A stretch of 64,000 bases of DNA, taken from assembly GCA_938074445.1 (NCBI GenBank), contig CALJEK010000001.1, forward strand, positions 62,001-126,000, written 5' to 3'. Positions 9,508-25,557 of the stretch are shown here, one piece after another (the first letter of the stretch is position 1; every line of letters starts with the position of its first letter). This DNA is from Candidatus Kryptoniota bacterium (lineage in GTDB: Bacteria > Bacteroidota > Ignavibacteria > Kryptoniales > Kryptoniaceae). The position numbers and the translations under genes are program-made. Under the pieces are notes generated by a model. The model was not told where the DNA came from. It ran no database searches and saw nothing but the letters and a program-made list of their open reading frames with translations.

Positions 9508-9550
9508 GTAGTTTATTTTTTAAGAAGTTGTTATGATTATTAATAAGGGC

Positions 9551-9799: not shown

Positions 9800-9805
9800 A
9801 TGTTG

Positions 9806-11317
9806 TTATTTTGAATTGAACTCAATTTTCCTTCGCAAAGATTCAACAAGATTTCTAAACTTTTCGCTTTTTCTCATATCTTCCTCGATAGACTGACATG
9901 CGTGAATCACTGTGCTGTGGTCCCTGCCCCCAAAGTGTAATCCAATTGTTTTAAGAGATGAATCTGTAAGTTCTTTGCATAAATACATTGCAATTTGCCT
10001 TGCCATCACGACTTCTTGTTTTCTCGTTTTTGCCTTTAACATATCTGGAGGGATTTCAAAATGTTCAGATACAATTCTTTGGATTTCCTCAATTGAAACT
10101 TTTATAGATGTATCTTTAACTATTGTTTTCACAACTTCCTTTGCAAGTTCAATATCAATTTTTCTGTTTTCAAGTGAAGATTTCGCAAGCAAACTTATAA
10201 GACAACCCTCAAGTTCTCTTATGTTAGATGTTATATGGACAGCAATATATTCAATAACCTCTTGTGGAATCTCTATCCCATTATCCTCGGCTTTTTTCTT
10301 TAGAATTGCAATTCTTGTTTCAAGATCCGGTGGTTGAATATCAGCGATCAAACCCCATTGAAACCTTGAAATTAGTCTATCATCAAGCCCTTTTAATTCC
10401 TTTGGTGGTCTATCGGAGGATAAAACAATTTGTTTCCTTGCCTGATGAAGAGCGTTAAATGTATGGAAAAAGTTATCTTGCGTTTTTTCTTTTCCCGCAA
10501 AAAATTGGATATCATCAACGATTAAGACATCAACGCTCCTGTAGAAATTAGAAAAATCATTGACCTTATCTTTTTGAATAGCCTCAACAAAGTCAATTGT
10601 GAATTTCTCGCTTGAAACATAGTAAACCCTCGCTGCTTTTTTATTCGCGATGACGTAATTTCCAATCGCTTGAATTAGATGGGTTTTACCAAGTCCAACG
10701 CCACCATAGATCACAAGTGGATTAAAAGATGTGCCTCCTGGGTTATTTGCAACTGCAAGAGCAGCTGCTCTGGCTAATTGATTACAATCGCCCTTCACGA
10801 AATTGTCAAATGTATATTTCGGGTTTAAATTGCTATCAAAAGGTTGAAAGTCGTAAGAGCTTTTGACCTGAATTGGGTAAGATGATTTTGAAGCTGGTTT
10901 TGGAGCAGGAGGAAGATTTATCGTTGTTTTTGTTTCATCTGAAGACGAATTTTCCATAACAACGGAATAAACAAGCTTGGCACCTTCTCCAAGAACTTTA
11001 GTAAGTGTTTTTTTGATTAAACTGTAATAGTGCTCCTCAAGCCACTCATAAAAAAATTGGCTTGGCACCTGGATTGTTATTTGCTTTCCTTCAATTTTAA
11101 GAGGGACAATTGGCTCAAACCATGTTTTGAAACTTAGGGGATTAACATTATCCCGAATTATTTCAAGACATTCGTTCCATATTGCCTTTACATCTTTGAA
11201 CTCAGCTGGAGTTACGGATGCTCCCAACGATTCGGGGTGCGTGTTGCTTTCATCTGTGGTGAAATCGAAAGGGCTTTGCTCAATATTTTTTTCTGGAGTT
11301 TTTGATGCTTTTTCCAT
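9806..11317 (-). CDS. dnaA: Chromosomal replication initiator DnaA
   Basis: A 503-residue initiator with all four domains. Domain I (about 43-115) carries NPLSFKTWFEPI; a Ser/Pro/Lys-rich linker follows; domain III (about 165-385) is AAA+ with Walker A GGVGLGKT at 205-212, DVLIVDDIQF as Walker B, and SSDRPPKELKGLDDRLISRF. Domain IV ends with GLHFGGRDHSTVIHAC, the DnaA-box reading helix. About 40 extra polar residues precede domain I. The gene is flanked on both sides by dense DnaA boxes, so autoregulation is very likely. It is transcribed on the minus strand, away from adk, which lies 417 bases upstream on the same strand. Confidence 0.98.
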   Translation of the reverse strand: MEKASKTPEKNIEQSPFDFTTDESNTHPESLGASVTPAEFKDVKAIWNECLEIIRDNVNPLSFKTWFEPIVPLKIEGKQITIQVPSQFFYEWLEEHYYSLIKKTLTKVLGEGAKLVYSVVMENSSSDETKTTINLPPAPKPASKSSYPIQVKSSYDFQPFDSNLNPKYTFDNFVKGDCNQLARAAALAVANNPGGTSFNPLVIYGGVGLGKTHLIQAIGNYVIANKKAARVYYVSSEKFTIDFVEAIQKDKVNDFSNFYRSVDVLIVDDIQFFAGKEKTQDNFFHTFNALHQARKQIVLSSDRPPKELKGLDDRLISRFQWGLIADIQPPDLETRIAILKKKAEDNGIEIPQEVIEYIAVHITSNIRELEGCLISLLAKSSLENRKIDIELAKEVVKTIVKDTSIKVSIEEIQRIVSEHFEIPPDMLKAKTRKQEVVMARQIAMYLCKELTDSSLKTIGLHFGGRDHSTVIHACQSIEEDMRKSEKFRNLVESLRRKIEFNSK

Positions 11318-11345
11318 AAGTCAAAACAATCTTTGGTTTTAAAAC

Positions 11346-11637
11346 TTATCAACATTTTTATAAAAATTGTGGATAACCTGTGGATAAATCGTTATGTCAG
11401 TTATCAAAGTTATCAACATTTGTTCACATAGTTATCCACATGTTAGCGACAAAATTTTTGTTTAAAATTCAATGATTTTTCGGTCTCGAGACTAAAGTTA
11501 TTCACATTTATGCGGAAAAGAACGACTTGTCAAATCGAAAGTAAAATTTTTGTTACACAAAATATATGAGTTATCAACAAGTTATCGACAAACAGAAGAA
11601 GTTATGCCTAATTATTTATAAGCAAAGTTTTTGTTAA
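11346..11637. other. DnaA boxes and AT-rich repeats upstream of dnaA (candidate oriC)
   Basis: The 417-base gap between dnaA and adk has no gene but many DnaA boxes: perfect TTATCCACA or complement at 11368-11376, 11379-11387 and 11432-11440, with variants at 11346-11354, 11410-11418, 11498-11506, 11571-11579 and 11582-11590. Interleaved are three AT-rich direct repeats sharing AAARTTTTTGTT (11451, 11543, 11624), spaced 81-92 bases apart. Boxes plus AT-rich repeats are the classic parts of a bacterial origin (DnaA assembly region and unwinding element). The dnaA promoter must also lie here, so the boxes probably give autoregulation as well. Confidence 0.85.
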
Positions 11638-11734
11638 ACGCAAGGGGGTTGAGTTGAAAAGATTTTAATTATAATTTGTTAACCCATGTAAGGTCGTCGT
11701 ATTGCAGAAAGGGTCTTTTGGTAAAAAGCGGTGA

Positions 11735-12385
11735 TTAACTTTTTATCCCGACGCTTTTGCAAATTTTTTCTGTTATCTCGCTTATTTCTCCGACCCCATT
11801 TATTGCTTTTAAAATTCCCTTCTTGGCGTAGTATTCAAGTAGGATCTGAGTTGATTCTCTATAAACCTTTAATCTATTTTTTATGACATCTGGATTATCG
11901 TCGCTTCTTTGGTAAAGTTCACCACCGCATCTCGGGCATTTATTATCCTCTGGAATTTTGTCGATCAAAAGGTTAAAGACCGCTCCACAATTTTTACAAA
12001 CACGTCTATTTGTCAATCTCTTAATTATTTCATCGTCGTTAACCTCCAGGCTTATCACATAGTCAAGTTTTATGTTAAGTTCTTCAAATATTTCGTCAAG
12101 CGCTTCTGCTTGAGCTATTGTCCTTGGGAATCCGTCAAGTATAAACCCATTCTTGCATTTTTCAGAGGCTAAAACCTCTTTTATTATTCCGATCATCACA
12201 TCGTCCGGGACGAGCTCCCCTTTATCCATAAAAGATTTTGCCTTTAGACCGAGTTCGGTTTGGTTTTTAACCGCTTCTCTTAACATATCTCCCGTCGAAA
12301 TATGCGGGATATTCAGTTTTTGAGATAAAATTTGAGCTTGAGTTCCTTTTCCAACGCCAGGGGGACCAAAAATTATCAATCTCAT
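11735..12385 (-). CDS. adk: Adenylate kinase, zinc-type LID
   Basis: A 216-residue long-form adenylate kinase that interconverts ATP, AMP and ADP. The P-loop is GPPGVGKGT at residues 7-15, followed by ISTGDMLR and FILDGFPRT. The LID carries four cysteines (C130, C133, C150, C153) in a C-x2-C...C-x2-C arrangement, so it should bind zinc structurally, a feature often seen in thermophiles and Gram-positives. The ATG has a strong AAGGAG site. It lies 17 bases downstream of rlmN on the minus strand and precedes the origin-like region; it is not in the usual ribosomal-protein cluster beside secY. Confidence 0.97.
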   Translation of the reverse strand: MRLIIFGPPGVGKGTQAQILSQKLNIPHISTGDMLREAVKNQTELGLKAKSFMDKGELVPDDVMIGIIKEVLASEKCKNGFILDGFPRTIAQAEALDEIFEELNIKLDYVISLEVNDDEIIKRLTNRRVCKNCGAVFNLLIDKIPEDNKCPRCGGELYQRSDDNPDVIKNRLKVYRESTQILLEYYAKKGILKAINGVGEISEITEKICKSVGIKS

Positions 12386-12402: not shown

Positions 12403-13452
12403 TTAATTTTGTTTATTTAAAATTGCGAGTTGTCCGCAAGCTGCTTTTATATCTTCGCCAGCGTTGTTTCTTATGAATACAGTAAGGTTGCGTTCGCGAA
12501 GTTTTTGGGCGAATTCTTCAAGCCTTGGAGAAGGTTTTAAGGACGGCTCCTTTCGTATGAAATCAATAGGATGAAATTTTAAAAGATTTATTTTGCACGG
12601 GATAACTTTAGCAAGCTCTGCGAGTTTTTCGATATCTTCATCTCTATCATTTAGACCATCGAAAACGATATATTCGTAAGTTATCCTCAATCCAATTTTG
12701 CTGTAGTAATATTTTAATGCGTCGATAATGGATGAGATTGGGTATTTGCTTGCTATTGGGATAAGATTTGAGCGTAGATTTTCATCAAGGGTATGAAGTG
12801 ATAAGGCAATTTTAACTTTCTTTCCTGCATTTGCGAATTCTACTATTTTATCAGGTATTCCAACGGTTGAGACCGTTATCTTTCTTGCCCCGATCCTTAT
12901 ACCATCATCGCTTGTTATTATATCGATTGCTTTGAGTAAATTTTTTAAATTTAAAAGTGGCTCTCCCATTCCCATAAAAACGATGTTGGTAATTCTCCTA
13001 TCGGCATATCTTTGTGTATGTATTATTTGGTCAATGATTTCACCAGTCGTCAAATTTCTTCTGAACCCCATTGCCCCTGTTGCGCAAAATTTACAATCGA
13101 TAGGGCATCCAACTTGTGTTGAAACGCAAAGCGTAAGGCGGGATTTATCCGGTATTAAAACACTCTCAATTTTTTCTCCATCTTTTAATTCAAATAGAAA
13201 TTTTATTGTGCCGTCGCAATTTGATTTTTCAAACGATAAAAGTTTCAATTCATTTATTTCGGCTATCTCTTGAAGTTCATCTCTATAGTGTTTTGGCAGG
13301 TCGCTCATTTTGGAAAAGCTGTCGACTTGTTTATTGTAGAGCCATTTGAAGATTTGTTTTGCGCGGAATTTTTCCCATCCAAGTTCAGTTACAAATTTTT
13401 CGAGTTCCGGTAAAGTTAAGCCCTTAAATGATGTTTTTTGAGCCGTTTTCAT
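12403..13452 (-). CDS. rlmN: Dual-specificity RNA methyltransferase RlmN
   Basis: A 349-residue radical-SAM methyltransferase that makes 2-methyladenosine at 23S rRNA A2503 and tRNA position 37. The cluster motif C-x3-C-x2-C is CPIDCKFC at residues 116-123. The family motifs VFMGMGEPLLN, ITVSTVGIP and IALSLH follow, and the C-terminal GEDIKAACGQL holds the second catalytic Cys. The other conserved Cys is in the QVGC region, as expected for the methyl-carrier chemistry. Length is normal. No Shine-Dalgarno precedes the ATG. It is divergent from the flagellar operon across a 221-base regulatory gap. Confidence 0.97.
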   Translation of the reverse strand: MKTAQKTSFKGLTLPELEKFVTELGWEKFRAKQIFKWLYNKQVDSFSKMSDLPKHYRDELQEIAEINELKLLSFEKSNCDGTIKFLFELKDGEKIESVLIPDKSRLTLCVSTQVGCPIDCKFCATGAMGFRRNLTTGEIIDQIIHTQRYADRRITNIVFMGMGEPLLNLKNLLKAIDIITSDDGIRIGARKITVSTVGIPDKIVEFANAGKKVKIALSLHTLDENLRSNLIPIASKYPISSIIDALKYYYSKIGLRITYEYIVFDGLNDRDEDIEKLAELAKVIPCKINLLKFHPIDFIRKEPSLKPSPRLEEFAQKLRERNLTVFIRNNAGEDIKAACGQLAILNKQN

Positions 13453-13474: not shown

Positions 13475-13534
13475 TTGAACAACTTTAAAAAAATTTATTA
13501 ATTTCAACCCTTTTTAGCAAAATTTGTTGTTCAA
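13475..13534. promoter_or_regulatory. Spaced inverted pair of TTGAACAAC, candidate enhancer sites
   Basis: TTGAACAAC at 13475-13483 recurs as its exact complement GTTGTTCAA at 13526-13534. Each copy sits in a small dyad of form GTTG-N2-CAA(C). They lie roughly 160 and 110 bases upstream of the expected start of the sigma-54 promoter at 13617, the usual distance for binding sites of AAA+ enhancer-binding activators. No such activator gene is in the window, so its identity is unknown. Assignment rests on position and symmetry only. Confidence 0.5.
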
Positions 13535-13616
13535 TATTATTCAGCATTTGCATAATATTCCTCACAGATTGGGCAAGCAACGACTTTAAATTTCGCGTAA
13601 AAATTAGTTTTTGTGG

Positions 13617-13632
13617 TGGCACTTATTTTGCA
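13617..13632 (+). promoter_or_regulatory. Sigma-54 (-24/-12) promoter of flagellar operon
   Basis: The sequence TGGCAC, five bases, then TTGCA matches the RpoN consensus TGGCAC-N5-TTGCW at every defined position, with exactly 10 bases between the GG and GC dinucleotides. It lies 41 bases upstream of the first start codon of the flagellar operon, placing the expected transcript start about 13645. Sigma-54 control of rod and hook genes is known in several flagellated phyla and requires an activator, possibly binding at 13475-13534. Confidence 0.88.
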
Positions 13633-13673
13633 TTAGGTCTTTTTGAGAAAATTTAACAAAACAAGGTTGAAAA

Positions 13674-13805
13674 ATGAGAGGGTTGATTTTATCGCTCGGA
13701 TTCGTTGGAATTTTGATATTCATTTTTGTTCTTGTGCGAAGGAAGAGAAGGTTTGTTGATGATTTTGAAACGGACGATATTCAATTTGAACTTTATGCTC
13801 AATAA
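13674..13805 (+). CDS. 43-aa membrane microprotein leading the flagellar operon
   Basis: A short frame encoding 43 residues: a hydrophobic N-terminal helix (about residues 3-21, LILSLGFVGILIFIFVLV), a basic stop-transfer RRKRR, and an acidic tail DDFETDDIQFELYAQ. The topology suggests the tail is cytoplasmic. It is the first open frame after the sigma-54 promoter and ends 14 bases before flgB, which supports expression, though its ribosome site is weak (AAGG). I do not recognise a family. It could be a flagellar assembly accessory or a leader peptide; nothing in the sequence decides this. Confidence 0.6.
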   Translation: MRGLILSLGFVGILIFIFVLVRRKRRFVDDFETDDIQFELYAQ

Positions 13806-13819: not shown

Positions 13820-14251
13820 ATGTTAAAGATTTTTCTTTTTAATCAAACGAAAATACCGCTTCTTAAGAAGGCGTTAGATGCGTACTCCTTGAGGCAGAGG
13901 GCGATTGCGTCAAATATTGCAAACATAACAACGGTAGGATATAAACGAATTGATGTAAAGTTTGAGGAGGAGCTTAGAAAAAGTTTGGGTGGTGAATTTA
14001 TAAGAGGGGTGAAAACAAATGAAAAACATTTTTCTATTGGTGCGAAAGATTTTGATGAGGTTCAACCTGAAACTGTGGTAGAGCCATCAGCATATAATCC
14101 TGATCCTCTTTCAAGTGGTGTAAACAATGTGGACATTGATTATGAGATGGTTGAGCTTGCGAAGAATCAGATAAGATATAAACTTGCGTCAAGGTTGATA
14201 GCGGAGTCGTTCAGGGGAATTCAAAAAAGTATAAAAGGAGGAGGCTTATGA
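13820..14251 (+). CDS. flgB: Flagellar proximal rod protein FlgB
   Basis: A 143-residue rod protein with the N-terminal flagellar rod/hook helix: LLKKALDAYSLRQRAIASNIANITTVGYKRIDVKFEEEL, including the conserved ANIANxxTxGYK motif. The C-terminal half has the NNVDIDYEMVELAKNQIRY segment typical of FlgB. It forms the cell-proximal rod between MS ring and distal rod and is exported through the flagellar type III apparatus. Length is normal. A GAGG-like site precedes the ATG. It overlaps flgC by 4 bases. Confidence 0.96.
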   Translation: MLKIFLFNQTKIPLLKKALDAYSLRQRAIASNIANITTVGYKRIDVKFEEELRKSLGGEFIRGVKTNEKHFSIGAKDFDEVQPETVVEPSAYNPDPLSSGVNNVDIDYEMVELAKNQIRYKLASRLIAESFRGIQKSIKGGGL

Positions 14252-14745
14252 AATTGGAGAAGCTTTTTGCGTCATTTAACATAAGTGCTATGGGGTTAAG
14301 TGCTCAAAGGAAAAGGATGACGGCAATCGCTGAAAATATCGCTAATGTTGAGACAACGAGGACCGAGAAGGGAACGCCTTACAAGAGGAAGGTTGTAGTG
14401 ATGAAGGCTTCAGCGGAGAAAAATTTTGCAAATGTTTTAAAAAGAGAAACAATTGGGTTGAAGATAACGAATGAAAAGCATTTTGATTCAAATTCTGTTG
14501 AATTTGTGGCAAATGAAGATGGAATAAGGGGAGTAAGAGCTGAGGTTACTGAAGACAATTCCCCTGAACGGCTCGTTTACAATCCAGAACACCCTGATGC
14601 GGATGAGAATGGTTATGTTCATATGCCAAATGTTAATATAGTTGTTGAAATGGTTGATATGATTTCGGCGACGCGTTCGTATGAGGCAAATGTGACTGCT
14701 TTTAACGCTTCAAAGAACATGGCAAAAGATGCATTGGAGATTTGA
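14248..14745 (+). CDS. flgC: Flagellar rod protein FlgC
   Basis: A 165-residue rod protein starting in an ATGA overlap with flgB. The N-terminal helix FNISAMGLSAQRKRMTAIAENIANVETTRTEKGTPYKRK is the FlgC signature, with a C-terminal NVNIVVEMVDMISATRSYEANVTAFNASKNMAKDALEI helix that packs with it in the rod. It is slightly longer than the common 135-150 residues because of the central VEDNSPERLVYNP-like region. Polymerises with FlgB, FlgF and FlgG; those last two are not encoded in this window. An AAGGAGG site precedes the start inside flgB. Confidence 0.96.
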   Translation: MKLEKLFASFNISAMGLSAQRKRMTAIAENIANVETTRTEKGTPYKRKVVVMKASAEKNFANVLKRETIGLKITNEKHFDSNSVEFVANEDGIRGVRAEVTEDNSPERLVYNPEHPDADENGYVHMPNVNIVVEMVDMISATRSYEANVTAFNASKNMAKDALEI

Positions 14746-14746
14746 T

Positions 14747-14959
14747 ATGAAGGTTGAAGGTGTAAACAATTTTAATGAATTAAATTTTCAAGTTAAGAAA
14801 GTTTCGCATCCTGCAGAAGTTTTAAGTAAAGAGGAAGTTAGGTTCTTCGAGAAACTTTTCCCCGAAAGCGTTAAGGAAATAAGAGAGCGTTATCAGTATG
14901 ATTTTAGAGGCAGGTTAGTTATTGAAACCAACAATCAGATAATTAACAAAAAGGTTTGA
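14747..14959 (+). CDS. 70-aa conserved-position flagellar operon protein
   Basis: A small hydrophilic protein of 70 residues, unrecognised by name. The ATG at 14747 is one base after the flgC stop; an upstream in-frame ATG inside flgC at 14729 is less likely. The core reads LSKEEVRFFEKLFPESVKEIRERYQYD, a compact amphipathic helix pair, followed by a short beta-like tail GRLVIETNN. Its placement between flgC and fliE, with no gap on either side, argues for a role in rod/MS-ring assembly, but no function can be assigned from sequence alone. Confidence 0.65.
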   Translation: MKVEGVNNFNELNFQVKKVSHPAEVLSKEEVRFFEKLFPESVKEIRERYQYDFRGRLVIETNNQIINKKV

Positions 14960-14962
14960 GTT

Positions 14963-15259
14963 ATGATTAAGCAGGTTAATTTAATAGCTTCTGGTGAGTT
15001 CTATAAAAATGAAGTGAAAGAGAGGGCAAGGGAGAGCATCGAGAGTTTTGAGAGCGTTTTAAAAGAGTTTATCAAAGATGTGAATCAGCTCCAAAATGAA
15101 GCCGGCGAGGCGATTGAGAAAGCAATAACTGGAGAGATAAATGATATTCATGATGTTATGATTGCAGTTGAGAAGGCGAAGACAAGTTTTGAACTTTTGA
15201 TGGAGGTGAGGAACAAAATGCTTGAAGCGTATAAGGAGTTAATGCGTTTACAGGTTTAA
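14963..15259 (+). CDS. fliE: Flagellar hook-basal body protein FliE
   Basis: A 98-residue protein matching FliE: a first helix IESFESVLKEFIKDVNQLQNEAGEAIEKAITGE and the conserved C-terminal IHDVMIAVEKAKTSFELLMEVRNKMLEAYKELMRLQV. FliE is the adapter between MS ring and rod and one of the first substrates of flagellar export. Length is typical. It starts three bases after the 70-aa gene and is followed 19 bases later by fliF. Confidence 0.95.
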   Translation: MIKQVNLIASGEFYKNEVKERARESIESFESVLKEFIKDVNQLQNEAGEAIEKAITGEINDIHDVMIAVEKAKTSFELLMEVRNKMLEAYKELMRLQV

Positions 15260-15278
15260 ACAAAAATTTTAAATTCTG

Positions 15279-16859
15279 ATGGATTCATTTGTTCAGGTGA
15301 AAGAATTTTGGGGGAAATTATCAACTGCGCAAAAGATTTTGCTTATTGCAGTTACGATTGCTTCAATTGTTGGCTTTACGTTTTTGATTTCGTGGGTCCG
15401 TGAGCCTGAATATGGAGTTCTATTTTCTAATTTGGAACCGCAGGATGCAGGTAAAATAGTTGAGAGATTAAAGGAGAGGAAGATTAATTACAGATTGGAA
15501 AGCGGTGGACGAACTATACTTGTTCCAAAGCAAAATATTTATGAATTAAGGCTTCAATTTGCGAGTGAAGGGTTGCCAAATTCAAGCATTGTTGGGTATG
15601 AAATTTTTGATAAAAGCAATATTGGTGTTTCGGATTTCGTTCAAAAGATAAATTACAAGCGTGCACTTGAGGGGGAGCTTGCAAGGACAATTTTGCAAAT
15701 AGATGGAATTGAAGCGGTAAGGGTCCACATTGTTATTCCCGAAAGAACGCTTTTTAAAGAAGATCAAAAACAACCAACCGCATCTGTAATAGTTAGGTTA
15801 AAACAAGGGGCAAAGTTAAGCCCAGATAACGTCCAAAGCATCGCTTACCTTGTTGCAAGTAGCGTTGAGGGGCTTGAACCCCAAAATGTTACAATACTTG
15901 ATTCAAGGGGACGGCTTTTATCTGATAATTCCAATACAGATCCGCTTGCAAAGATAAGTAGTAAGCAATATGAGTTAAAAAGAAGTGTTGAGCAATATCT
16001 TGCCGATAAAGTTCAGAGTTTGCTTGATGCTGTTTTAGGTTCGGGAAATTCAATAGTAAAGGTTGATGTTGAACTTAATTTTACCCAAGTTGAAAAGACA
16101 ATAGAGGAATACGACCCTGATAAAACTGTTGTAAGGAGTGAGCAAACGACGCAGGAAAAAAGTAGTTCAGTTGATTCAACGCTTGCAAGCGCAAGCTCGC
16201 AAAGGACAAACACAATAACAAACTATGAGATTAATAGGACACTTCAAAGGATAGTTGAAAGTGTTGGAAATATAAAACGACTTTCGGTTGCCGTCCTTGT
16301 AAATGGGACTTACAAAGTTAATGAAGCAGGAGGGGTTAGGAAAGTTGAATACATCCCACGGGATGAGGAGCAAATTCAGAAGTTGACGGAAATAGTTAAA
16401 AACGCCGTGGGTTTCAATCCAGATAGAAATGACCAGGTTTCCGTTCTCAGCATACCATTTGAGCCAGCAGGTGAGGGGATAGGGTTTATACAACGGGAGG
16501 ATAAAAAAGAAAATTGGCGTGAGCTTGTAGAGAAAATTGTGGTTGGGCTTGCAATAATTGGGTCGATTATTCTTGTATTTTCTCTTCTCGGAAAGCTGAA
16601 GGTAAAGAGAGAAATTCCGACTATTGAAGTTAAAGAGCTTCCAACCGTTCAGTCTCAGGCAACGCTTAAAGAGCCAGAACAAGTTGCGGTTGAAGCGATT
16701 CAACAGGTCAACGAGGAAGAGCTCGAATTTGAAAGAATGAAGAAGGAGCAAATTAAAGAAAAGGTGAAGGACTATATTCGTGAAGATTCTGAGCAGGCAG
16801 CGAGGCTAATTAAAGTTTGGTTACTTGAAGAGGAAAGGCAGAAATGGCAAAGGCGTTAA
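15279..16859 (+). CDS. fliF: Flagellar MS-ring protein FliF
   Basis: A 526-residue inner-membrane ring protein. The first transmembrane helix spans about residues 20-40 (LLIAVTIASIVGFTFLISWV). The periplasmic ring-building domains follow, with EPEYGVLFSNLEPQDAGKIVERL and GIEAVRVHIVIPERTLF. A second transmembrane helix lies near 421-440 (VVGLAIIGSIILVFSLLG), and a C-terminal cytoplasmic tail rich in Glu/Lys binds FliG. Length is normal. Its last 16 bases overlap fliG, implying coupled translation of the ring and rotor proteins. Confidence 0.97.
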   Translation: MDSFVQVKEFWGKLSTAQKILLIAVTIASIVGFTFLISWVREPEYGVLFSNLEPQDAGKIVERLKERKINYRLESGGRTILVPKQNIYELRLQFASEGLPNSSIVGYEIFDKSNIGVSDFVQKINYKRALEGELARTILQIDGIEAVRVHIVIPERTLFKEDQKQPTASVIVRLKQGAKLSPDNVQSIAYLVASSVEGLEPQNVTILDSRGRLLSDNSNTDPLAKISSKQYELKRSVEQYLADKVQSLLDAVLGSGNSIVKVDVELNFTQVEKTIEEYDPDKTVVRSEQTTQEKSSSVDSTLASASSQRTNTITNYEINRTLQRIVESVGNIKRLSVAVLVNGTYKVNEAGGVRKVEYIPRDEEQIQKLTEIVKNAVGFNPDRNDQVSVLSIPFEPAGEGIGFIQREDKKENWRELVEKIVVGLAIIGSIILVFSLLGKLKVKREIPTIEVKELPTVQSQATLKEPEQVAVEAIQQVNEEELEFERMKKEQIKEKVKDYIREDSEQAARLIKVWLLEEERQKWQRR

Positions 16860-17872
16860 ATTTAAAATATGAAAATTTAACGGGCAAGCAAAAAGCGGCG
16901 ATTTTACTGCTTGCGCTTGATGTTGAAACTGCATCGAAGGTCTTTCGCCATCTTGAGCCTCAGGAAATGGAACAGCTTGCAATAGAGATTTCTTCGTTGG
17001 AGGGAATTTCTTCGTCTGTTGTTCAGGCTGTCATAGAGGAATTTTTTCAAATGATGAAGGCGCAGGAATATATCATTGTTGGTGGGTTTGAATATGCTAA
17101 AACATTGCTTGAGAAGTCGCTTGGTTCGCAGAAGGCGTCCGAGATAGTTGAAAAGGTTCACAGCATGACTCAAATAAAAGGATTTTCGGCGCTTAAAAAA
17201 GCGGATGCGACACAGCTTGCAAATTTTCTTCAGAAGGAACATCCTCAGACGATAGCCTTAGTCCTTTCTCATTTGCCACTTGAGCAAACTGCAAAAGTTA
17301 TAAATCAATTCCCCGAAGATTTGAGGGTTGAAGTTGTGTATAGAATTGCGAAGCTTGGGAAAATTTCCCCAACAATTTTAACTGAACTTGAAAGCGTGAT
17401 TGATGTGATGGCTGAAACATCTTTAAGTCAGGAAGTTAGCGCAACTGGTGGGTCGAGGACTGTAGCGGCGATTCTTAACAAAATCGGCTCGCAGGAAGCG
17501 AGGGTGCTTTTACAAAGGATAGAGGAACAAGATCCAGATCTTGCAAACGAGATAAAGAGGTTGATGTTCTTGTTTGAGGACATCATTTACATTGATGATA
17601 GAAGCATACAAAGGATTTTGCGCGAGGTTGATAAAAAAGACCTTGCACTTGCTTTGAAGGGAGCGGATCAAAAGATAAAAGAAAAAATTTTCAAGAATAT
17701 GTCGGAAAGGGCTGCAGCTATGTTGCAGGAGGAAATTCAATATATGGGTCCTGTAAGATTACGTGAGGTTGAAGCAGCTCAAATGAGAATTGTTGAAATT
17801 ATAAAACGGCTTGAGGAAAATCAGGAAATTATCATTGCTGGAAGAGGAGGTGAAGAGGACATTGTTTACTAA
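16844..17872 (+). CDS. fliG: Flagellar motor switch protein FliG
   Basis: A 342-residue rotor protein. The N-domain carries LTGKQKAAILLLALDVETASKVFRHLEPQEMEQLAIEI, the middle domain LQKEHPQTIALVLSHLPLEQTAKVINQFPEDLRVEVVYRIA with the EHPQTIA motif, and the C-domain MFLFEDIIYIDDRSIQRILREVDKKDLALALKGA with the charged residues that meet the stator. It joins the MS ring through FliF and switches rotation through FliM. FliM, FliN and stator genes are not in this window. Overlaps fliF by 16 bases and fliH by 11. Confidence 0.97.
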   Translation: MAKALNLKYENLTGKQKAAILLLALDVETASKVFRHLEPQEMEQLAIEISSLEGISSSVVQAVIEEFFQMMKAQEYIIVGGFEYAKTLLEKSLGSQKASEIVEKVHSMTQIKGFSALKKADATQLANFLQKEHPQTIALVLSHLPLEQTAKVINQFPEDLRVEVVYRIAKLGKISPTILTELESVIDVMAETSLSQEVSATGGSRTVAAILNKIGSQEARVLLQRIEEQDPDLANEIKRLMFLFEDIIYIDDRSIQRILREVDKKDLALALKGADQKIKEKIFKNMSERAAAMLQEEIQYMGPVRLREVEAAQMRIVEIIKRLEENQEIIIAGRGGEEDIVY

Positions 17873-18587
17873 AAAGGTTGTAAAAGATGGGTCGCCTGTG
17901 GAGAAATTTTTGTTTGAGGAATTAAGAATTGACGATCTTAGTGTTTGGAAGTTGTCAAGTGAGGATGTGAGAAGTGAAATTGAAACAAGTTCAACCTCGG
18001 ACGTCGATTTTGCGCAAGAGGAAAGAAGGAGTGAAAGCGGAATCGATATTGAATCAATAATATCACAGCTCAAGAATGAATATGAAGCAAAGATTGCGGA
18101 AGCGTATCAGAGGGGGTTTAACGATGCCGAGAAAATTTTAAGGGAAAAAGTAAATAGTGAATTGAGCGAGCATATTGCTGCTTTTGATCAACTTTTAAAA
18201 AATTTTTACAGCGAGGTTGAATCGCTCGGGTCAAAAATTGAGAGTTTTGTTCTTTCGCTTGCCATTAAAATTGCCGAGAAAATTGTCAAAAAGGAAATTG
18301 AAAAAAATGACAACTTCATTCTAAATCAAGTAAAGGAAGCGGTGAAAAGGGTTGTCGGCGTTGAAAAGATAAAGTTAAAAATTAACCCTGAGGATGAAAA
18401 GCTTATAAGGGGGTTAAAACCAGAACTTTTGCAAATGCTTGACTCAGCAAGTGAAATTATCATTGAAACAGATCCTGGGATTGAAAGGGGTGGTTGTGTG
18501 GTTGAAAGCGAGCTTGGGAATGTTGATTCGAGAATCTCAACGCAATTTTCATTAATTGAAAACTTATTGCTTGAGGTTACGAAATGA
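17862..18587 (+). CDS. fliH: Flagellar export ATPase regulator FliH
   Basis: A FliH/SctL-type protein. I chose TTG at 17862 (241 residues) because AGGAGG lies 11 bases upstream and the overlap with fliG is then only 11 bases; GTG 17850 and TTG 17811 are also in frame. The N-terminal third is acidic and low-complexity; a helical stalk follows with QLKNEYEAKIAEAYQRGFNDAEKIL. The C-terminal globular domain has KIAEKIVKKEIEKNDNFILNQVKEAVKRV and the ERGGCVVESELGNVDSRISTQF motif typical of the family. It binds FliI and links the ATPase to the export gate. It overlaps fliI by 4 bases. Confidence 0.88.
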   Translation: MFTKKVVKDGSPVEKFLFEELRIDDLSVWKLSSEDVRSEIETSSTSDVDFAQEERRSESGIDIESIISQLKNEYEAKIAEAYQRGFNDAEKILREKVNSELSEHIAAFDQLLKNFYSEVESLGSKIESFVLSLAIKIAEKIVKKEIEKNDNFILNQVKEAVKRVVGVEKIKLKINPEDEKLIRGLKPELLQMLDSASEIIIETDPGIERGGCVVESELGNVDSRISTQFSLIENLLLEVTK

Positions 18588-19912
18588 TGCTAAACCTTGA
18601 GGCAAAAATGAGAAAATATCTTGATAAGATTGAACATTTTGATTTAGTTAAGGTTAACGGAAGGGTTACGCAAGTTATAGGTCTTGTAATTGAATCAATC
18701 GGTCCATCGGCTTCGCTTGGAGAGGTATGCGCTATTAAGTCAAAAAATGATGAAACAATCTGTCTGGCGGAGGTGGTTGGATTTAAAAATAATCGTGTTC
18801 TTTCAATGGCACTTGGTGATATAAATAAGATAAGCCCAGGGAGTGAAATAGTTGCAACGGGACGAACATTTTCCATTCCGGTTGGGAGAAAGCTTCTTGG
18901 CAGAGTTATAGATGGGCTTGGATACCCAATTGATGGAAAAGGATGGATTGAGGCAGATGAAATGAAATCAATTTATAATCAACCACCAGCCCCACTTGAG
19001 AGGAGCAGGATAACTCAACCGATAGCTACGGGCGTAAGGGCTATAGATTCACTTCTCACGTGTGGGAAAGGACAAAGAATCGGAATCTTTGCGGGGAGTG
19101 GGGTTGGGAAAAGCACACTTATGGGAATGATCGCAAGACACTCGAATGCAGATGTGAATGTAATTGCTTTAATTGGTGAACGAGGCAGGGAAGTTAGAGA
19201 TTTTATTGAGAAGGAGCTTGGTGATTCAGATCTTTTGAAAAGTGTTGTTGTAGTTGCGACGAGCGATAAGCCACCTCTTATAAGGGTTAAAGCTGCGTTT
19301 GTTGCAACTGCAATTGCGGAATATTTTAGAGATCAAGGGTTTGATGTGATGTTTATGATGGATTCACTTACTCGTGTTGCGATGGCTCAGCGTGAGGTTG
19401 GACTTGCAATAGGTGAGCCACCCACAACGAAGGGTTACACTCCGTCTGTTTTTGCATTACTTCCGAAACTTGTTGAGCGCGCCGGAACCTCTTTAAAGGG
19501 AAGCATCACAGCACTTTATACGGTTCTTGTTGAAGGTGACGATTTCAATGAACCAATTGCTGATTTTTCAAGGTCAATACTTGATGGTCACATTGTGCTT
19601 TCACGAAGGCTTGCAAATATGGGACATTATCCAGCTATAGAGCCACTCGAAAGCGTGAGTAGACTTATGTCAGATATAGTTAGCCCTGAGCACAAAAAAT
19701 CGGCAGAAAAAATAATAGAGATGCTTGCAACATACAGAGAAGCTGAAGATTTGATAAACATTGGGGCTTATGTTCGAGGTAGCAATCCAAAAATTGATAA
19801 AGCATTACAGATGATTGAAAGAATAATGGGGTTTTTAAAGCAAGATATGAAAGAAAAAGCAGAGTTTGAGGATTCGGTTAATCGTTTAATTGAGCTTGCA
19901 AAATTAATTTAA
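18584..19912 (+). CDS. fliI: Flagellum-specific ATPase FliI
   Basis: A 442-residue F1-beta-like ATPase powering flagellar protein export. Motifs in order: GRVIDGLGYPIDGKG, PPAPLERSRITQPIATGVRAIDSLLTCGKGQRIGIFAGSG with Walker A GSGVGKST (about residues 170-177), ALIGERGREVRDFIE, MMDSLTRVAMAQREVGLA, and EPPTTKGYTPSVFALLPKLVERAG. It is near-identical in architecture to SctN ATPases, but the fully flagellar operon decides the assignment. Length is normal. It overlaps fliH by 4 bases and precedes fliJ by 9. Confidence 0.97.
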   Translation: MMLNLEAKMRKYLDKIEHFDLVKVNGRVTQVIGLVIESIGPSASLGEVCAIKSKNDETICLAEVVGFKNNRVLSMALGDINKISPGSEIVATGRTFSIPVGRKLLGRVIDGLGYPIDGKGWIEADEMKSIYNQPPAPLERSRITQPIATGVRAIDSLLTCGKGQRIGIFAGSGVGKSTLMGMIARHSNADVNVIALIGERGREVRDFIEKELGDSDLLKSVVVVATSDKPPLIRVKAAFVATAIAEYFRDQGFDVMFMMDSLTRVAMAQREVGLAIGEPPTTKGYTPSVFALLPKLVERAGTSLKGSITALYTVLVEGDDFNEPIADFSRSILDGHIVLSRRLANMGHYPAIEPLESVSRLMSDIVSPEHKKSAEKIIEMLATYREAEDLINIGAYVRGSNPKIDKALQMIERIMGFLKQDMKEKAEFEDSVNRLIELAKLI

Positions 19913-19921
19913 GGTGGGGAA

Positions 19922-20350
19922 ATGCCACGTTTCAAACTTGATTCAGTTTTGAAGGTTCGTCAAGTTCAAGAGAAAAAGTATAATAGAGACCTTTCGGAGA
20001 TTAAAGTAATTCGTGAAAAAGCCGAAAAATTGTTAGAAGACCTTGAAGCTGAAAAAATGCAGCAAATGGAAAATTTGGAAATTGAGGAAAAAATTAAGGT
20101 GATTGATTTGCAAATTCAATATGCTTATTTAAATGCGGTCGCTGAACAGGTTGAGAGACAGAAAAGCGTACTCGAAAGGGTTCTAAAGGAAGAGGAGAAA
20201 AAACGCGATGTTTTGATAAAAACGAATCAAAACAAGCGCATGATTGAGAAATTAAAGCAGAAATTTAATGAGCAGATTTTGAAGGATTTTCAAAAGAAGG
20301 AGCAAACGCTTTTAGATTCAATTTCGCACAGAACAATATTTAACAGATAA
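19922..20350 (+). CDS. fliJ: Flagellar export chaperone FliJ
   Basis: A 142-residue, almost entirely coiled-coil protein (FKLDSVLKVRQVQEKKYNRDLSEIKVIREKAEKLLEDLEAEK..., then VLERVLKEEEKKRDVLIKTNQNKRMIEKLKQKF). Composition, length and the position right after fliI match FliJ, the central stalk that activates FliI and escorts chaperones. The family is weakly conserved, so the call depends on location and the RFKLDSVLKxR N-terminus, which is characteristic. A GGTGGGG stretch precedes the ATG as the ribosome site. Confidence 0.9.
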   Translation: MPRFKLDSVLKVRQVQEKKYNRDLSEIKVIREKAEKLLEDLEAEKMQQMENLEIEEKIKVIDLQIQYAYLNAVAEQVERQKSVLERVLKEEEKKRDVLIKTNQNKRMIEKLKQKFNEQILKDFQKKEQTLLDSISHRTIFNR

Positions 20351-20352
20351 AA

Positions 20353-20931
20353 ATGGGAAGAACGATCTTTGCTTATATACTTGGTTTTACTTTTTCTTTT
20401 GTGACGATTTTTGAGGGCATGTATGTTCTTTCAAAGCTTTATCCCAAACTTTTTAGACCGATTTCCAAATCAAGTCATGTTTTAATAGGGCTTGACTCCC
20501 TCAAACTTAAAAATGATTCACTTGGTATCATGTGGGAGGATACAAGTTCGATTGGTCTTGAATATGTCGAGGCATATAAACTTGATAGTTTGAAAAGTTT
20601 ATATAATGAGGTATTTGCGGAATTAAAAAGGTATAAAGATAGTATTGTTGTTCTTAACAAAATAGTTCGCAATCTTGAAGCTGAGATAAGGGAGAGGGAT
20701 TTGATCGTTGAAAGGCTGCAACGCCAGATTTTAAATCAGCGGGATGATAGAATCAAAACTATGGCAAAAATTTACGAGTCGATGGAGCCGGAAGTAGCTG
20801 CAAGAATTCTTGAGAACATGCCTGAAGGTGAGGCGATTAAAATTATTTTAAATATGCAGAGACGACAAGCTGCAAAGATACTTTCCGAGATCAGCACAGC
20901 AAAAGCCAGCAAACTTTCAAGCTTAAAATGA
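20353..20931 (+). CDS. MotE-like flagellar protein (MgtE-N domain)
   Basis: A 192-residue protein with an N-terminal transmembrane helix (about residues 6-28, FAYILGFTFSFVTIFEGMYVL), a coiled-coil from about 75 to 130, and a C-terminal MgtE intracellular N-like domain: IYESMEPEVAARILENMPEGEAIKIILNMQRRQAAKILSEI. This layout is that of MotE, which stabilises or chaperones motor proteins such as MotC in alphaproteobacteria, and of similar proteins between fliJ and fliK in many phyla. Here it follows fliJ by two bases and overlaps fliK by four. Confidence 0.82.
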   Translation: MGRTIFAYILGFTFSFVTIFEGMYVLSKLYPKLFRPISKSSHVLIGLDSLKLKNDSLGIMWEDTSSIGLEYVEAYKLDSLKSLYNEVFAELKRYKDSIVVLNKIVRNLEAEIRERDLIVERLQRQILNQRDDRIKTMAKIYESMEPEVAARILENMPEGEAIKIILNMQRRQAAKILSEISTAKASKLSSLK

Positions 20932-22313
20932 AGTTAAGTTTAATTGATATACTAAGTGATTTAGGTTTAAATCAAGTCGGGCAAAACGAGATTTCCTGTA
21001 AAAAGACAAAGGCAGATTTTAAGGATATACTTGCGCTTTTCTTAACTCAGTTTTTTGCGAACGTTAAAGTAGAAAAATTTGAATCAATTTGCCTACCTCA
21101 GGAGGGAAGCTCTTCGGTTCAGTTATATCCAACGTTTATTTCAAAGCCCAAGAGTTTAGAATCACAAGTATCAAATACTCAAACAGAAAAGCAACTTGAT
21201 ATTTCCGTTTCAAATCAAGAATCCAAAGAAGTTAAGACAAGTTTAATTCCTGCTCTTGATGCATTCTTTTTTGCAGAGGATGGGGAAGTTTTAGAGTTGT
21301 TTCAGAATTTAAATCTGAAAGATAAAATTAGTTTGAAACAGGAGATTCACAAATTTATTATTGATGAAGGGTTTGAAGAAGTTGGATTAGACGAATCAAT
21401 TCGTGAATTTGTCTTTGCAAAGAGGGTTGATTATGAGAGTGTAAAGGGTAATGGAATTGAAACTATTTTGCCGGAGGATTTACAAGATGAGCGAGTTTTG
21501 AAAAAGGGTGAAAAAGTTGGTTCGAAGTTAGAGCCATCTCCGAGAGAGATTGCATTGGGGAATGATGTTAAGGTTTTTGAATCTGGGGTTGGGGAAGTTT
21601 TAAAAAAAGATAATGAGATTGATATTGAGGAGCTAATTTTTAAATCGAGAAAGCTAAAACCACAATTTGAAAATCGAGGATGCAATGTGGACATCAAAAA
21701 CGAGAAGGAAGATGTTGTTTCAACAAGTTTTGAGCGCAATCAAGCCAAAAGCGAGTTTGATTTACAGCATGAGTTTAAAAAGTTTGAGATTAGCAATGTT
21801 AAATTCGGGAGGGTTTATGAAAAAGTTGGCAATTGGAATTTAAGTTTTATTAATGCTATAGATTCAAGCGATGAAGCTGGCGCTGGAAATTTTGTGCTAT
21901 CGGTGAAAGCCAAGGAAATTTTAGATGTGATAAAGACTTTAGTTTTTAAGAATGGTGATTTTATTTATGATAAGGTTATTTTAAAAGTTGAACCAGGTGA
22001 GATTGGGGAAGTCGTTGTCAAAATTTCGCAGGGCGAGAAGGGGGTAAGGATTTTGTTTGAGGTTAAAAATTTCGAGGCGAAACATCTGATTGAGTCAGGA
22101 TTTTATAATTTAAAGGCATCTCTTGAGTCAAGCAATGTAATGCCCGAAAAGATTTCAGTGTTGATGGTTGGTGAAAATATTAACAATAATTATTTTGATT
22201 CTTCAAGCTCGGATCACGGGCAGTTTTTAAAGAAAGCAAACAAAAAGAAAAATTTTGACTCTTTTGAAAGCGTTAGGATTTATGGTGGTAGTTTAATAGA
22301 GGCAATAATTTAA
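20928..22313 (+). CDS. fliK: Flagellar hook-length control protein FliK
   Basis: A 461-residue protein with the FliK plan: a long, poorly conserved, polar N-terminal region (the molecular ruler) and a compact C-terminal Flg_hook domain near residues 330-420. There the sequence runs KVILKVEPGEIGEVVVKISQGEKGVRILFEV, matching the L-x-P-x-x-L-G-x-V-x-V core with Glu for Leu-Pro variations. It switches export specificity from hook to filament. Position between the MotE-like gene and flgD fits. It overlaps the former by 4 bases; flgD begins 15 bases later. Confidence 0.88.
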   Translation: MKLSLIDILSDLGLNQVGQNEISCKKTKADFKDILALFLTQFFANVKVEKFESICLPQEGSSSVQLYPTFISKPKSLESQVSNTQTEKQLDISVSNQESKEVKTSLIPALDAFFFAEDGEVLELFQNLNLKDKISLKQEIHKFIIDEGFEEVGLDESIREFVFAKRVDYESVKGNGIETILPEDLQDERVLKKGEKVGSKLEPSPREIALGNDVKVFESGVGEVLKKDNEIDIEELIFKSRKLKPQFENRGCNVDIKNEKEDVVSTSFERNQAKSEFDLQHEFKKFEISNVKFGRVYEKVGNWNLSFINAIDSSDEAGAGNFVLSVKAKEILDVIKTLVFKNGDFIYDKVILKVEPGEIGEVVVKISQGEKGVRILFEVKNFEAKHLIESGFYNLKASLESSNVMPEKISVLMVGENINNNYFDSSSSDHGQFLKKANKKKNFDSFESVRIYGGSLIEAII

Positions 22314-22328
22314 AGGGAGGTGAGAATC

Positions 22329-23030
22329 GTGGATAACATTAATTTAATCCAAAACTTTAGAGGCATTCCTTTGACTGGAAGCAGTGTTCAAAGCTCTAAT
22401 AAGGCAGTTCTTGGGAAAGATGATTTTTTGAAGCTTTTGATAACACAAATTAACTATCAGGATCCTTTAAATCCAATTCGGAGCACGGAATTTGCAAGCC
22501 AGCTTGCCCAGTTTAGTTCGCTCGAGCAGCTTTACAATATCAATTTAAATCTCTCGAGAAACATTGACGCAAGTTATGCGACAAATCGTTCTATTACAAA
22601 TGCTTTGATTGCGAATTTAATTGGGAAAAAGGTGACTGTTTATGGTGATTCTTTTAAACTTGAGTTTGGGAAAGGTTTAGAATTTGGGTATGAATTGAAG
22701 GGCGATGTTAAATCGATTGAAATTAAAATTCTTGATTCCTCTGGAAATGTGGTAAGGACTTTTAAGCTTGGGGAAAGGAAAAGTGGTAGATATGATTTCA
22801 AATGGGATGGAAGGGATGAATTTGGGAATTATCTGCCTGCTGGGAATTACAAAGTCAGAATTGAAGCTGTTGATGAAAATGTTAAGCCTGTAGCGGTGAA
22901 TACTTACATTAGTGGGATCGTTGAAGGGGTAAGGTATAAAGCGGATGGAGCGGTGATACTAATTGGTGGGGTTGAGTTCAACATTGCTGATGTAATTGAA
23001 ATAAAAGATGGGGGTGGAAATGACAATTGA
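22329..23030 (+). CDS. flgD: Flagellar hook-cap protein FlgD
   Basis: A hook-assembly scaffold of 233 residues from the GTG at 22329. An earlier in-frame GTG at 22320 falls inside the AAGGGAGG ribosome site, so I rejected it. The N-terminal region has the FlgD signature KDDFLKLLITQINYQDPLNPIRSTEFASQLAQFSSLEQLYNIN. The C-terminal half contains the FlgD Ig-like/tudor region with SGNVVRTFKLGERKSGRYDFKWDGRDEFGNYLPAGNYKVRIEA. It caps the growing hook for FlgE polymerisation. It overlaps the next gene by 11 bases. Confidence 0.95.
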   Translation: MDNINLIQNFRGIPLTGSSVQSSNKAVLGKDDFLKLLITQINYQDPLNPIRSTEFASQLAQFSSLEQLYNINLNLSRNIDASYATNRSITNALIANLIGKKVTVYGDSFKLEFGKGLEFGYELKGDVKSIEIKILDSSGNVVRTFKLGERKSGRYDFKWDGRDEFGNYLPAGNYKVRIEAVDENVKPVAVNTYISGIVEGVRYKADGAVILIGGVEFNIADVIEIKDGGGNDN

Positions 23031-23451
23031 AGTAAATGGTGTGAATGTTCCATTTATTCCAGCTGGCGGGGTTGAAACTTTAAAGAAAGAAGGTACGAGT
23101 GTAAAGGTTCCAGAGTTTGGTTTAAGATTTGAGGAAATTTTTAAGGGTGAGATTGAGAGAATAAGGTTTTCGAATCATGCTTTAAAAAGATTGGAAGATA
23201 GGGATGTGAGATTAAGTGAGGAGGATGTTAAGCTTTTAAATGATGCTTTGTTTCGAGCGGAGCAAAAAAATACAAGAGATGTTTTAATTTTGTTGAGAGA
23301 TATTGCTTTTATTGTTAATGTGAGGAGTAGAACTGTTATAACGGTGATTGATGAAAATAGCATGAGGGAACATGTTTTCACAAATATTGATGGTGCTGTA
23401 ATAATTCAAGGGGCTGGACCTAATTCTCAGGGAGCCCCGCAATCTCGCTGA
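23020..23451 (+). CDS. Flagellar operon protein, TIGR02530-like
   Basis: A 143-residue protein found between flgD and flgE. The segment FKGEIERIRFSNHALKRLEDRDVRLSEEDVKLLNDALFRAEQKNTRDVLILLRDIAFIVNVRSRTVITVID matches the small family annotated 'flagellar operon protein' in many Firmicutes and other phyla; its role is still poorly defined but tied to the hook region. I chose ATG 23020, preceded by GGGGGTGG, over the ATG at 23008. A short hairpin sits across its stop codon (23442-23467). Confidence 0.85.
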   Translation: MTIEVNGVNVPFIPAGGVETLKKEGTSVKVPEFGLRFEEIFKGEIERIRFSNHALKRLEDRDVRLSEEDVKLLNDALFRAEQKNTRDVLILLRDIAFIVNVRSRTVITVIDENSMREHVFTNIDGAVIIQGAGPNSQGAPQSR

Positions 23452-23467
23452 CCGACCGAGGCGAGAT
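23442..23467 (+). repeat. Hairpin across the stop codon before flgE
   Basis: ATCTCGC (23442-23448) and GCGAGAT (23461-23467) form a perfect 7-bp inverted repeat with a 12-base loop, straddling the upstream stop codon. No T-tract follows, so it is not a normal terminator. It may protect or process mRNA so that flgE, which has a very strong ribosome site, is expressed more than its neighbours. That role is inference. Confidence 0.5.
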
Positions 23468-23505
23468 CAAAATTAAAAACAAAAAATTAAAAGGAGGAGG
23501 TTAAA

Positions 23506-25557
23506 ATGTCATTTCTTAGGTCGTTATTCTCTGGCGTCTCTGGTTTAAGAAATCATCAAATTATGATGGATGTGATTGGGAATAACATTTCAAACATCAA
23601 TACCATTGGGTTTAAATCAGCGCGTGTTTCCTTCAGTGAAACATTTGCGCAGACGCTTCGCGGGGCTACTCAACCCTCTGCTGAATCAGGTGGAACTAAT
23701 CCACTTCAAGTTGGACTTGGAATGAATATAAGTGCGATTGACACAATCTTTACACAGGGGAATCTTGAAACTACGGGTCAGGTTACAGACCTTGCGATTC
23801 AAGGCAATGGATTTTTCATTGTAAGGAAGGGCGGAAGAAATTACTTTACAAGAGCTGGAGCTTTTAGATTTGATGCCAATGGTTATCTCGTTGATTCGGC
23901 AACAGGTGCAATTGTTCAAGGTAAGATGGCTGATCCTTCTGGTTTTGTTCCCCCTGGGGCAAAGCTTGAAGACATAAAGATTCCTTTCGGTCAAAAAGCG
24001 CCAGCAAAGGCAACATCAACTGTGAAGCTTACAGGTAACCTCAACGCCGGAGGTATCCCAAAGGGGAATATACTTAGAAGTGCACGACTCTACGCAGTTG
24101 AAGATGGCACCTCTGATATTAATGAGCTTCTTGCCACAGGATTAGCAAATACGATTATAACTGGAATGATTTCCGGTTCAACGACGGTGACAATTCAAGC
24201 TGGGGCTAAAGTTAAAACATACACTTATGTGGATAAAGATGGCGGGGTTGGGGATGGCAATTTCAACACTTTAAAAGATTTAATTGATGAAATTAACAAC
24301 GACTTCGCAGGTTTATTGTCAGCTTCTATCAATTCGCAAGGTAGCCTTGTTTTGACATCAAGTGTTGATCAAAACATTTTGGTGTCCAGCAATAATCGTA
24401 GCTTTGAAACCGCTTTATCGGGGTTAAGTGGAAGTTATACAGCGGGTTCAAACAAAGTATCTGATAAGTTTTCCCATATTGCGCGTGCTGACGACCTTTT
24501 GATCAATTTAAGGGATGCGCAGGGGAATGATCTTGGACTTACGGTTGGGGATATAATTACGATTGATGGGAAGGTTGGAGGCAAAGCGATCTCAACAGTT
24601 AATTTCACTGTGAATTCTACATCAACTTACAAAGATTTTGCTGATGTTATTAAAAATGCTTTTAGGATAAATAATTCAAAAGGAGTTGAAATTGATCCAA
24701 ATACTGGAGCGCTTGTCGTGAATGCAGATGGTGGGAAAGCAAATGAAATTACCGAACTTAACATTTCTTCGGTGGGTAGAGATAAGTTTAATTCAATTTT
24801 TGAAAACAAACCTGGCAATTGGCTTGAGGTTCAAAAAGCCGAAGATGTTGAAGTGTCAACAACTTTAACTGTTTATGATTCGCTTGGGAATAGGCATAAT
24901 ATAACCTTAAAGTTTGTAAAAGATGCAACAACACCAAATCAATGGATTTGGAGAGCGCAGGTTAGCGGAAATGAAGTTATAGTTGCGGGTGGAAGTGGGA
25001 AGGTCGTATTTAATTCCAATGGCTCGCTGAGAAGCTTTTTCTTCGACGATGGGAGTTCAACTTTGAGAATTGATCCGGGTAACAACTCTGCCGATATCCT
25101 TGATATAGTGATTGATCCTGGAAAGATTGGTGAATTTGCTGGGATAACTCAAATGGAAGGAACTTCAAGTTTAATTGCTGATCAAGACGGATATGGGCTT
25201 GGATTTTTAAACACAATTTCTATAAATGAAGATGGAAAAATTCTTGGTGTGTTTTCAAATGGGACCGTTCGTGTCCTTGCCCAAATTCTTGTCGCGACAT
25301 TTAACAATCCAACAGGATTGTTGAGAGTTGGGGATAATATGTTTGATATCTCTGCAAATTCTGGCACCCCGATAATTGATGAGCCGGGTTCGGTGATACA
25401 GTCTAAAGTAATGTCGGGGGTTCTTGAGCAATCAAATGTTGATCTTGCGGAGGAGTTTACACGTATGATAATCGCACAGCGCGGTTTTCAGGCGAATGCG
25501 CGGATAATAACGGTAAGCGATGAATTTTTACAGGAGATTACTAATTTAAAACGTTAA
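23506..25557 (+). CDS. flgE: Flagellar hook protein FlgE
   Basis: A 683-residue hook protein. The N-terminus FLRSLFSGVSGLRNHQIMMDVIGNNISNINTIGFKSARVSFSE is the rod/hook helix with the NNISNxNTxGFK motif. The core contains TQGNLETTGQVTDLAIQGNGFFIV and the C-terminus SGVLEQSNVDLAEEFTRMIIAQRGFQANARIITVSDEFLQEITNLKR, the standard D0 helix. A large central insertion of about 250 residues is presumably surface exposed. The AAGGAGGAGG ribosome site five bases before the ATG is the strongest in the operon, consistent with a structural protein needed in high copy. Confidence 0.97.
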   Translation: MSFLRSLFSGVSGLRNHQIMMDVIGNNISNINTIGFKSARVSFSETFAQTLRGATQPSAESGGTNPLQVGLGMNISAIDTIFTQGNLETTGQVTDLAIQGNGFFIVRKGGRNYFTRAGAFRFDANGYLVDSATGAIVQGKMADPSGFVPPGAKLEDIKIPFGQKAPAKATSTVKLTGNLNAGGIPKGNILRSARLYAVEDGTSDINELLATGLANTIITGMISGSTTVTIQAGAKVKTYTYVDKDGGVGDGNFNTLKDLIDEINNDFAGLLSASINSQGSLVLTSSVDQNILVSSNNRSFETALSGLSGSYTAGSNKVSDKFSHIARADDLLINLRDAQGNDLGLTVGDIITIDGKVGGKAISTVNFTVNSTSTYKDFADVIKNAFRINNSKGVEIDPNTGALVVNADGGKANEITELNISSVGRDKFNSIFENKPGNWLEVQKAEDVEVSTTLTVYDSLGNRHNITLKFVKDATTPNQWIWRAQVSGNEVIVAGGSGKVVFNSNGSLRSFFFDDGSSTLRIDPGNNSADILDIVIDPGKIGEFAGITQMEGTSSLIADQDGYGLGFLNTISINEDGKILGVFSNGTVRVLAQILVATFNNPTGLLRVGDNMFDISANSGTPIIDEPGSVIQSKVMSGVLEQSNVDLAEEFTRMIIAQRGFQANARIITVSDEFLQEITNLKR

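Follow-up and report, generated by a model that had tools for sequence, protein, structure and literature searches.

The window, a stretch of 64,000 nucleotides from a Candidatus Kryptoniota genome, includes an intergenic gap between the divergent minus-strand gene rlmN and a flagellar operon whose first reading frame, of 43 codons, starts at 13674 (Table 1). The FliG protein encoded in this operon is 98% identical to that of Candidatus Kryptonium thompsonii, the closest named relative. From 13820 onwards Pfam matches give the order flgB, flgC, fliE, fliF, fliG, fliH, fliI and fliJ, followed by genes for an MgtE_N-domain protein, fliK, flgD, a Flagellar_put protein and flgE, and from their common strand and close packing these genes are presumably co-transcribed. 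Flagella are by no means as rare in the lineage as the first-pass annotation had supposed, with fliF found in 115 of the 294 genomes of the class. On the other side of the gap, the block assigned to the rlmN promoter follows what we take to be the Bacteroidota-type promoter consensus.

No Pfam match was obtained for the 43-codon ORF. Reading frames of 43-59 aa with one hydrophobic stretch separate flgB from its sigma-54 promoter both in the genus and in several class relatives (the present window and loci L109, L247, L249, L053, L108, L239, L243, L248 and L250), and in the class relatives the C-terminal end of the product is often GI or GV. Elsewhere in the window, 55026-56168 encodes a protein with an unusual pairing of domains, an N-terminal Dev_Cell_Death and a C-terminal N6_N4_Mtase match.

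Table 1. Positions of the features discussed (window coordinates unless a locus is named)
Feature	Position	Strand	Basis or remark
rlmN, divergent gene	12403..13452	-	Pfam RlmN_N + Radical_SAM
Left arm of first-pass inverted pair, TTGAACAAC	13475..13483	+	not conserved; chance level
Probable rlmN promoter, leftward, TTTG-N20-TAAATTTT	13490..13522	-	block conserved in genus alignment
Right arm of first-pass inverted pair, GTTGTTCAA	13526..13534	-	overlaps left part of dyad 1
Putative enhancer dyad 1, TGTTCAATATTATTCA	13528..13543	+	genus alignment
Putative enhancer dyad 2, TGCATAATATTCCTCA	13549..13564	+	genus alignment; also at fliL and flhF promoters
Sigma-54 promoter (-24/-12), TGGCACTTATTTTGCA	13617..13632	+	exact consensus; conservation in genus and class
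Predicted transcript start, about 12 bases past the -12 GC	13641..13645	+	usual sigma-54 geometry
43-codon ORF, one hydrophobic stretch, first in operon	13674..13805	+	protein conserved in 6 genus relatives
Flagellar operon	13820..25557	+	Pfam matches
C13 kinase, REC-PAS-HisKA-HATPase	L115:4521-6068		directly before the C13 gene
C13 activator, REC-AAA-HTH_8	G000:C13 (L115:6086-7489)		Pfam

A sigma-54 promoter before the flgB operon

The gap carries an exact match to TGGCAC-N5-TTGCW with GG-GC spacing, in the form TGGCAC-N5-TTGCA, located just where the first-pass annotation had noted it, 41 bases before the ATG that opens the operon. No second exact match occurs in the window. Matches with two mismatches occur there at chance level (30 versus 26 expected), so that the weight of the promoter comes from its conservation and from the enrichment of the pattern genome-wide, where 106 sites with at most one mismatch contrast with 18 for a reversed control pattern in 2.28 Mb. 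An alignment of the gap finds the promoter at the same place in 7 of 7 genus members, with TGGCA[CT]TTA[TA]TTTGC[AT] kept while the flanking bases vary. Among 54 flagellated class genomes outside the genus, 48 have TGGCAY-N5-TTG ahead of flgB, where letter shuffles predict 0.15. A scan of the region for sigma-70-type promoters found nothing. Judged by this sequence evidence, we take the sigma-54 promoter to be real. The matching sigma factor is encoded by a single rpoN gene with all three Pfam domains (AID, CBD and DBD), and the genome also contains nine full-size sigma-54 activators.

Paired dyads upstream of flagellar promoters

Upstream of the promoter, conservation in the genus alignment is strong over AATATT-N15-AATATT, a block at 13533-13559 that encloses CA and TG and is best read as two tandem dyads of the form TG-N3-AATATT-N3-CA with centres 21 bp apart. 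A genome search for the block with three mismatches allowed returned 13 distinct places, among which, besides flgB, two lie just upstream of the sigma-54 sites of flhF (C31) and fliL (C22). The fliL operon (fliL..flhBA) encodes FliL, FliM, FliN, FliP, FlhB and FlhA, and the flhF operon codes for FlhF, for an FlhG-like ATPase and for a member of the sigma-70 family that we take from its position to be FliA; rod proteins of the FlgF/G type and proteins of the hook-filament junction come further downstream (..flgL). Within the genus the dyads are conserved at 7 flgB, 6 flhF and 7 fliL promoters. When a matrix built from two of the operons was scored against the held-out site of the third in the window's genome, the score of that site was reached by 1 of 517,674 positions in each case. 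The block centre precedes the TGG by 70-73 bp in the flgB and fliL promoters; in the flhF promoter the distance is one helical turn longer, at 81-83 bp. On C10 (L029) another dyad candidate scored 19.1 but was set aside, as no sigma-54 site follows it. Shared between the three flagellar operons and conserved, the dyads bear the sequence marks of the enhancer of a sigma-54 activator.

That the conserved block is instead a short reverse-strand coding sequence we regard as practically negligible, since, although some copies can be read in one reverse-strand frame, changes fall at first as much as at third codon positions (by eye in the genus alignment), several copies have no start codon, and at fliL the reading runs into the apparent terminator of the upstream gene.

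The first-pass annotation had also placed enhancer dyads at a suitable distance upstream of the promoter, and dyads do exist there, albeit with another sequence and at 13528-13543 and 13549-13564. Its own candidate for the activator site was an exact inverted pair, TTGAACAAC/GTTGTTCAA, with arms 42 bases apart and a GTTG-N2-CAA dyad as the expected recognition element. The pair is present exactly as described, and its right arm lies inside the conserved dyad 1, the left half of which it happens to overlap. When the gap is dinucleotide-shuffled, 43% of the shuffles nevertheless contain an exact 9-bp inverted pair, neither arm occurs in any of the six genus relatives, and GTTG-N2-CAA, which was to be sought at all flagellar promoters, is missing from the other two flagellar sigma-54 promoters. 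The word TTGAACAAC is moreover not enriched genome-wide (55 copies versus 90 for the control), and its copy here falls in the rlmN leader, just downstream of the conserved block of the probable rlmN promoter. On the evidence of the shuffles, the genus relatives and the two other flagellar operons we reject TTGAACAAC and GTTG-N2-CAA as the binding site, and an activator bound to this pair is very improbable. One of the 55 genomic copies (C43:15798-15806) lies near the start of rpoN (6813-8309 of L120, G000:C43:9000-24000), probably by chance.

The conserved dyads extend beyond the genus. From the 54 flgB promoters of the class outside it we derive the consensus TGGCnAATATTnGCCA. When the top-scoring dyad no more than 130 bp from the sigma-54 site is taken at each promoter, the scores average 14.6, as compared with 6.1 ± 0.3 in controls where the matrix search was retrained on letter-shuffled sequence. 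A dyad scoring at least 10 is located at 50-115 bp in 45 of the 54 promoters (as with all class counts, these are not independent events, the relatives sharing history), and a good dyad was not found in that range in the other 9; in many of the promoters a weaker second dyad stands 18-21 bp from the best one. Dyad-to-promoter distances, which depend on our choice of the best-scoring sigma-54 site upstream of flgB at each locus, cluster at 57-60, 67-70, 77-83 and 90-91 bp with a best period of 10.6-10.8 bp, and after values within families were collapsed, 0 of 5,000 random sets were as periodic. More telling within this phasing evidence are families f13 and f17, whose members differ in distance by nearly whole turns. 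Steps of about 10.6 bp suggest, from sequence alone, that the activators need a particular face of the helix.

The same dyads could in principle bind a protein other than the activator, either architectural or an unrelated regulator, with the activator working without a fixed site. The dyad core is AT-rich, and activators free of upstream sites are known in some flagellar systems, as exemplified by FlgR of H. pylori, a flagellar activator thought to act without one. Against this stand the association of the dyad with the sigma-54 site across the class and its helical phasing at about 57-91 bp, both typical of an activator enhancer, and we hold such a role of the dyads to be improbable.

Candidate activators

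The nine activators were compared by reciprocal best hits with those of five relatives in the order, of which three are flagellated (G007, G065 and G085, the last only in part), while fliF, fliL and flhF were not found in G018 (100% complete) or G105 (93% complete, in about 370 contigs). C13 alone combines presence in each of the three flagellated relatives, at 58-59% identity, with absence from G018. It carries receiver, sigma-54 ATPase and Fis-type HTH domains by Pfam as well as the GAFTGA motif in its sequence, its recognition helix is nearly unchanged among the order relatives, and a histidine kinase gene precedes not only C13 itself but also its counterpart in G065. C13 is present in G105 too, where the flagellar cluster may be absent from the draft rather than from the genome. 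Activators C22, C3, C20 and C50 have orthologues in the flagellated relatives and also in G018; for C31, C12 and C35 the flagellated relatives offer no counterpart, and for C27 only a weak one, in G065. We favour, with moderate confidence, C13 together with the adjacent kinase as an FlrBC/FleSR-like activator of the flagellar dyads.

Other routes to the activator were less informative. Proximity to flagellar genes points to none: in the examined flagellar-cluster stretches of the relatives there is no activator ATPase domain, only receiver-domain matches, and C13 itself lies outside the flagellar clusters, next to dCTP deaminase-like and D-Ala ligase-like genes, with a tRNA synthetase gene adjoining its counterpart in two relatives. 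Like FlbD of Caulobacter and FlgR of Campylobacter and Helicobacter, which serve sigma-54 flagellar genes, C13 is an NtrC-type response regulator, but it scores 343 and 325 bits against NCBIfam NF050807 and NF049963 (FlbD, FlgR), for which the cut-off is 750. None of the other eight reaches 750 among the matches listed, and naming the activator by these models was abandoned, with all nine far below the cut-off among those matches. Autoregulation of C13 through the same dyad was likewise discarded, as no good dyad lies upstream of its kinase.

The same promoter and dyads might be served by another of the nine activators, such as the NtrC-like C22, which comes with a PAS kinase, or C20, with a GAF-type kinase perhaps providing the input. 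The orthologues of C22, C3, C20 and C50 in flagellated relatives are compatible with this, as is the GAF-type histidine kinase encoded in the flhF operon, and the occurrence of C13 in G105 weakens the case for C13. All four of these activators are, on the other hand, kept in the complete G018 genome with no fliF, flhF or fliL, although loss of the flagella need not entail loss of an activator that has further roles. We consider an activator other than C13 unlikely, if by some way the most serious of the alternatives. Genes for the GAF-type kinase and for an HDOD protein both form part of the flhF-flhG-fliA operon (1096-3338 of L203, G000:C31:70000-77500, minus strand). Together the two proteins are a possible sensor of flagellar assembly, and the kinase might be the true input to the circuit or feed a different activator.

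A separate sigma-54 locus came to light among the activators. On the minus strand of L119 (G000:C35:1-11860), within 569-11779, a CARF-AAA-HTH sigma-54 activator (8667-10385; RtcR_PspF2-like by PADLOC) is flanked on one side by a CARF gene with a Csm5-like fragment and on the other by a type I-B cas set comprising Cas8b, Cas7b, Cas5b, Cas3 and Cas1. The gap after the activator gene contains a sigma-54-like site, TGGCATAATATTTGCA (8564-8579), and about 75 bp upstream of it a 30-bp dyad, TGACAATATATTGGC/GCCGATATATTGGCA (8640-8669). This arrangement suggests that a type III signal may turn on the type I-B operon through sigma-54.

A possible circuit and its relation to known systems

We consider it likely that 13528-13632 comprises a sigma-54 promoter together with its own enhancer, driven by an NtrC-family regulator that is most likely C13. 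From the elements read directly in the sequence, namely the promoter, the dyads with their conservation and phasing, rpoN and the nine activators, we infer a circuit in terms of binding, phosphorylation, transcript start, cascade and the role of C13. RNA polymerase-sigma54 would wait at TGGCACTTATTTTGCA, while a phosphorylated NtrC-family response regulator would occupy, on one constant face of the helix, the two tandem dyads about 60 and about 81 bp upstream. By looping, the regulator would contact the waiting polymerase and open the complex using ATP, giving rise to a flgBC-fliE...flgE transcript from near 13643. The same activator and dyads would act on the fliLMN...flhBA and flhF-flhG-fliA...flgL operons, and the fliA product (sigma28) would then probably transcribe flagellin. 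Such a sigma54-to-sigma28 cascade is suggested by the fliA-like factor in the flhF operon and by a sigma-28-like sequence, TAAAGTAA...CCCGATAA, recognized by eye upstream of the flagellin gene (L148/L204, G000:C31 near 109500).

The closest parallels are FlrB/FlrC of Vibrio and FleS/FleR of Pseudomonas, in which, as in the C13 pair, the genes of a kinase and a REC-AAA-HTH activator lie side by side, sigma-54 promoters stand before basal-body operons, and a sigma-28 gene comes later in the cascade, which is a presumed one in the present case. The solved relatives of C13 also include FlrC, whose match extends over the ATPase region. Unlike these systems, the C13 pair belongs to a different lineage and lies outside the flagellar gene cluster, and its kinase has an N-terminal receiver domain. 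To our knowledge, TGGCnAATATTnGCCA is not a known enhancer of FlrC or FleR. FleQ and FlrA, both among the solved relatives of C13, are likewise sigma-54 activators of flagellar operons, but C13 differs from them in its full receiver domain and in adjoining a kinase gene. The FleQ site is a GTCA...TGAC dyad, from which the motif found here is distinct.

Control of flagella by enhancer-bound two-component activators and sigma-54 is well known in Proteobacteria (PMC3162934). A literature search found no paper on sigma-54 flagellar control in Ignavibacteria, a class that also goes unmentioned in a 2025 survey of sigma-54 regulons (PMC12316311). The type of circuit is thus already known, whereas the motif and its class-wide helical phasing are the parts for which the search found no description.

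For a poorly studied branch of Bacteroidota-like bacteria, the analysis provides a concrete, testable flagellar regulatory circuit, and it corrects the proposed binding site before the wrong bases get mutated. Whether the basal-body genes of most flagellated members of the class are under one such undescribed circuit, with a C13-type regulator acting on TGGCnAATATTnGCCA dyads and an enhancer moved almost only by whole helical turns, we judge to be an evenly balanced question; if true, these genomes would supply a natural series of spacings from which to learn how sigma-54 activators reach their polymerase.
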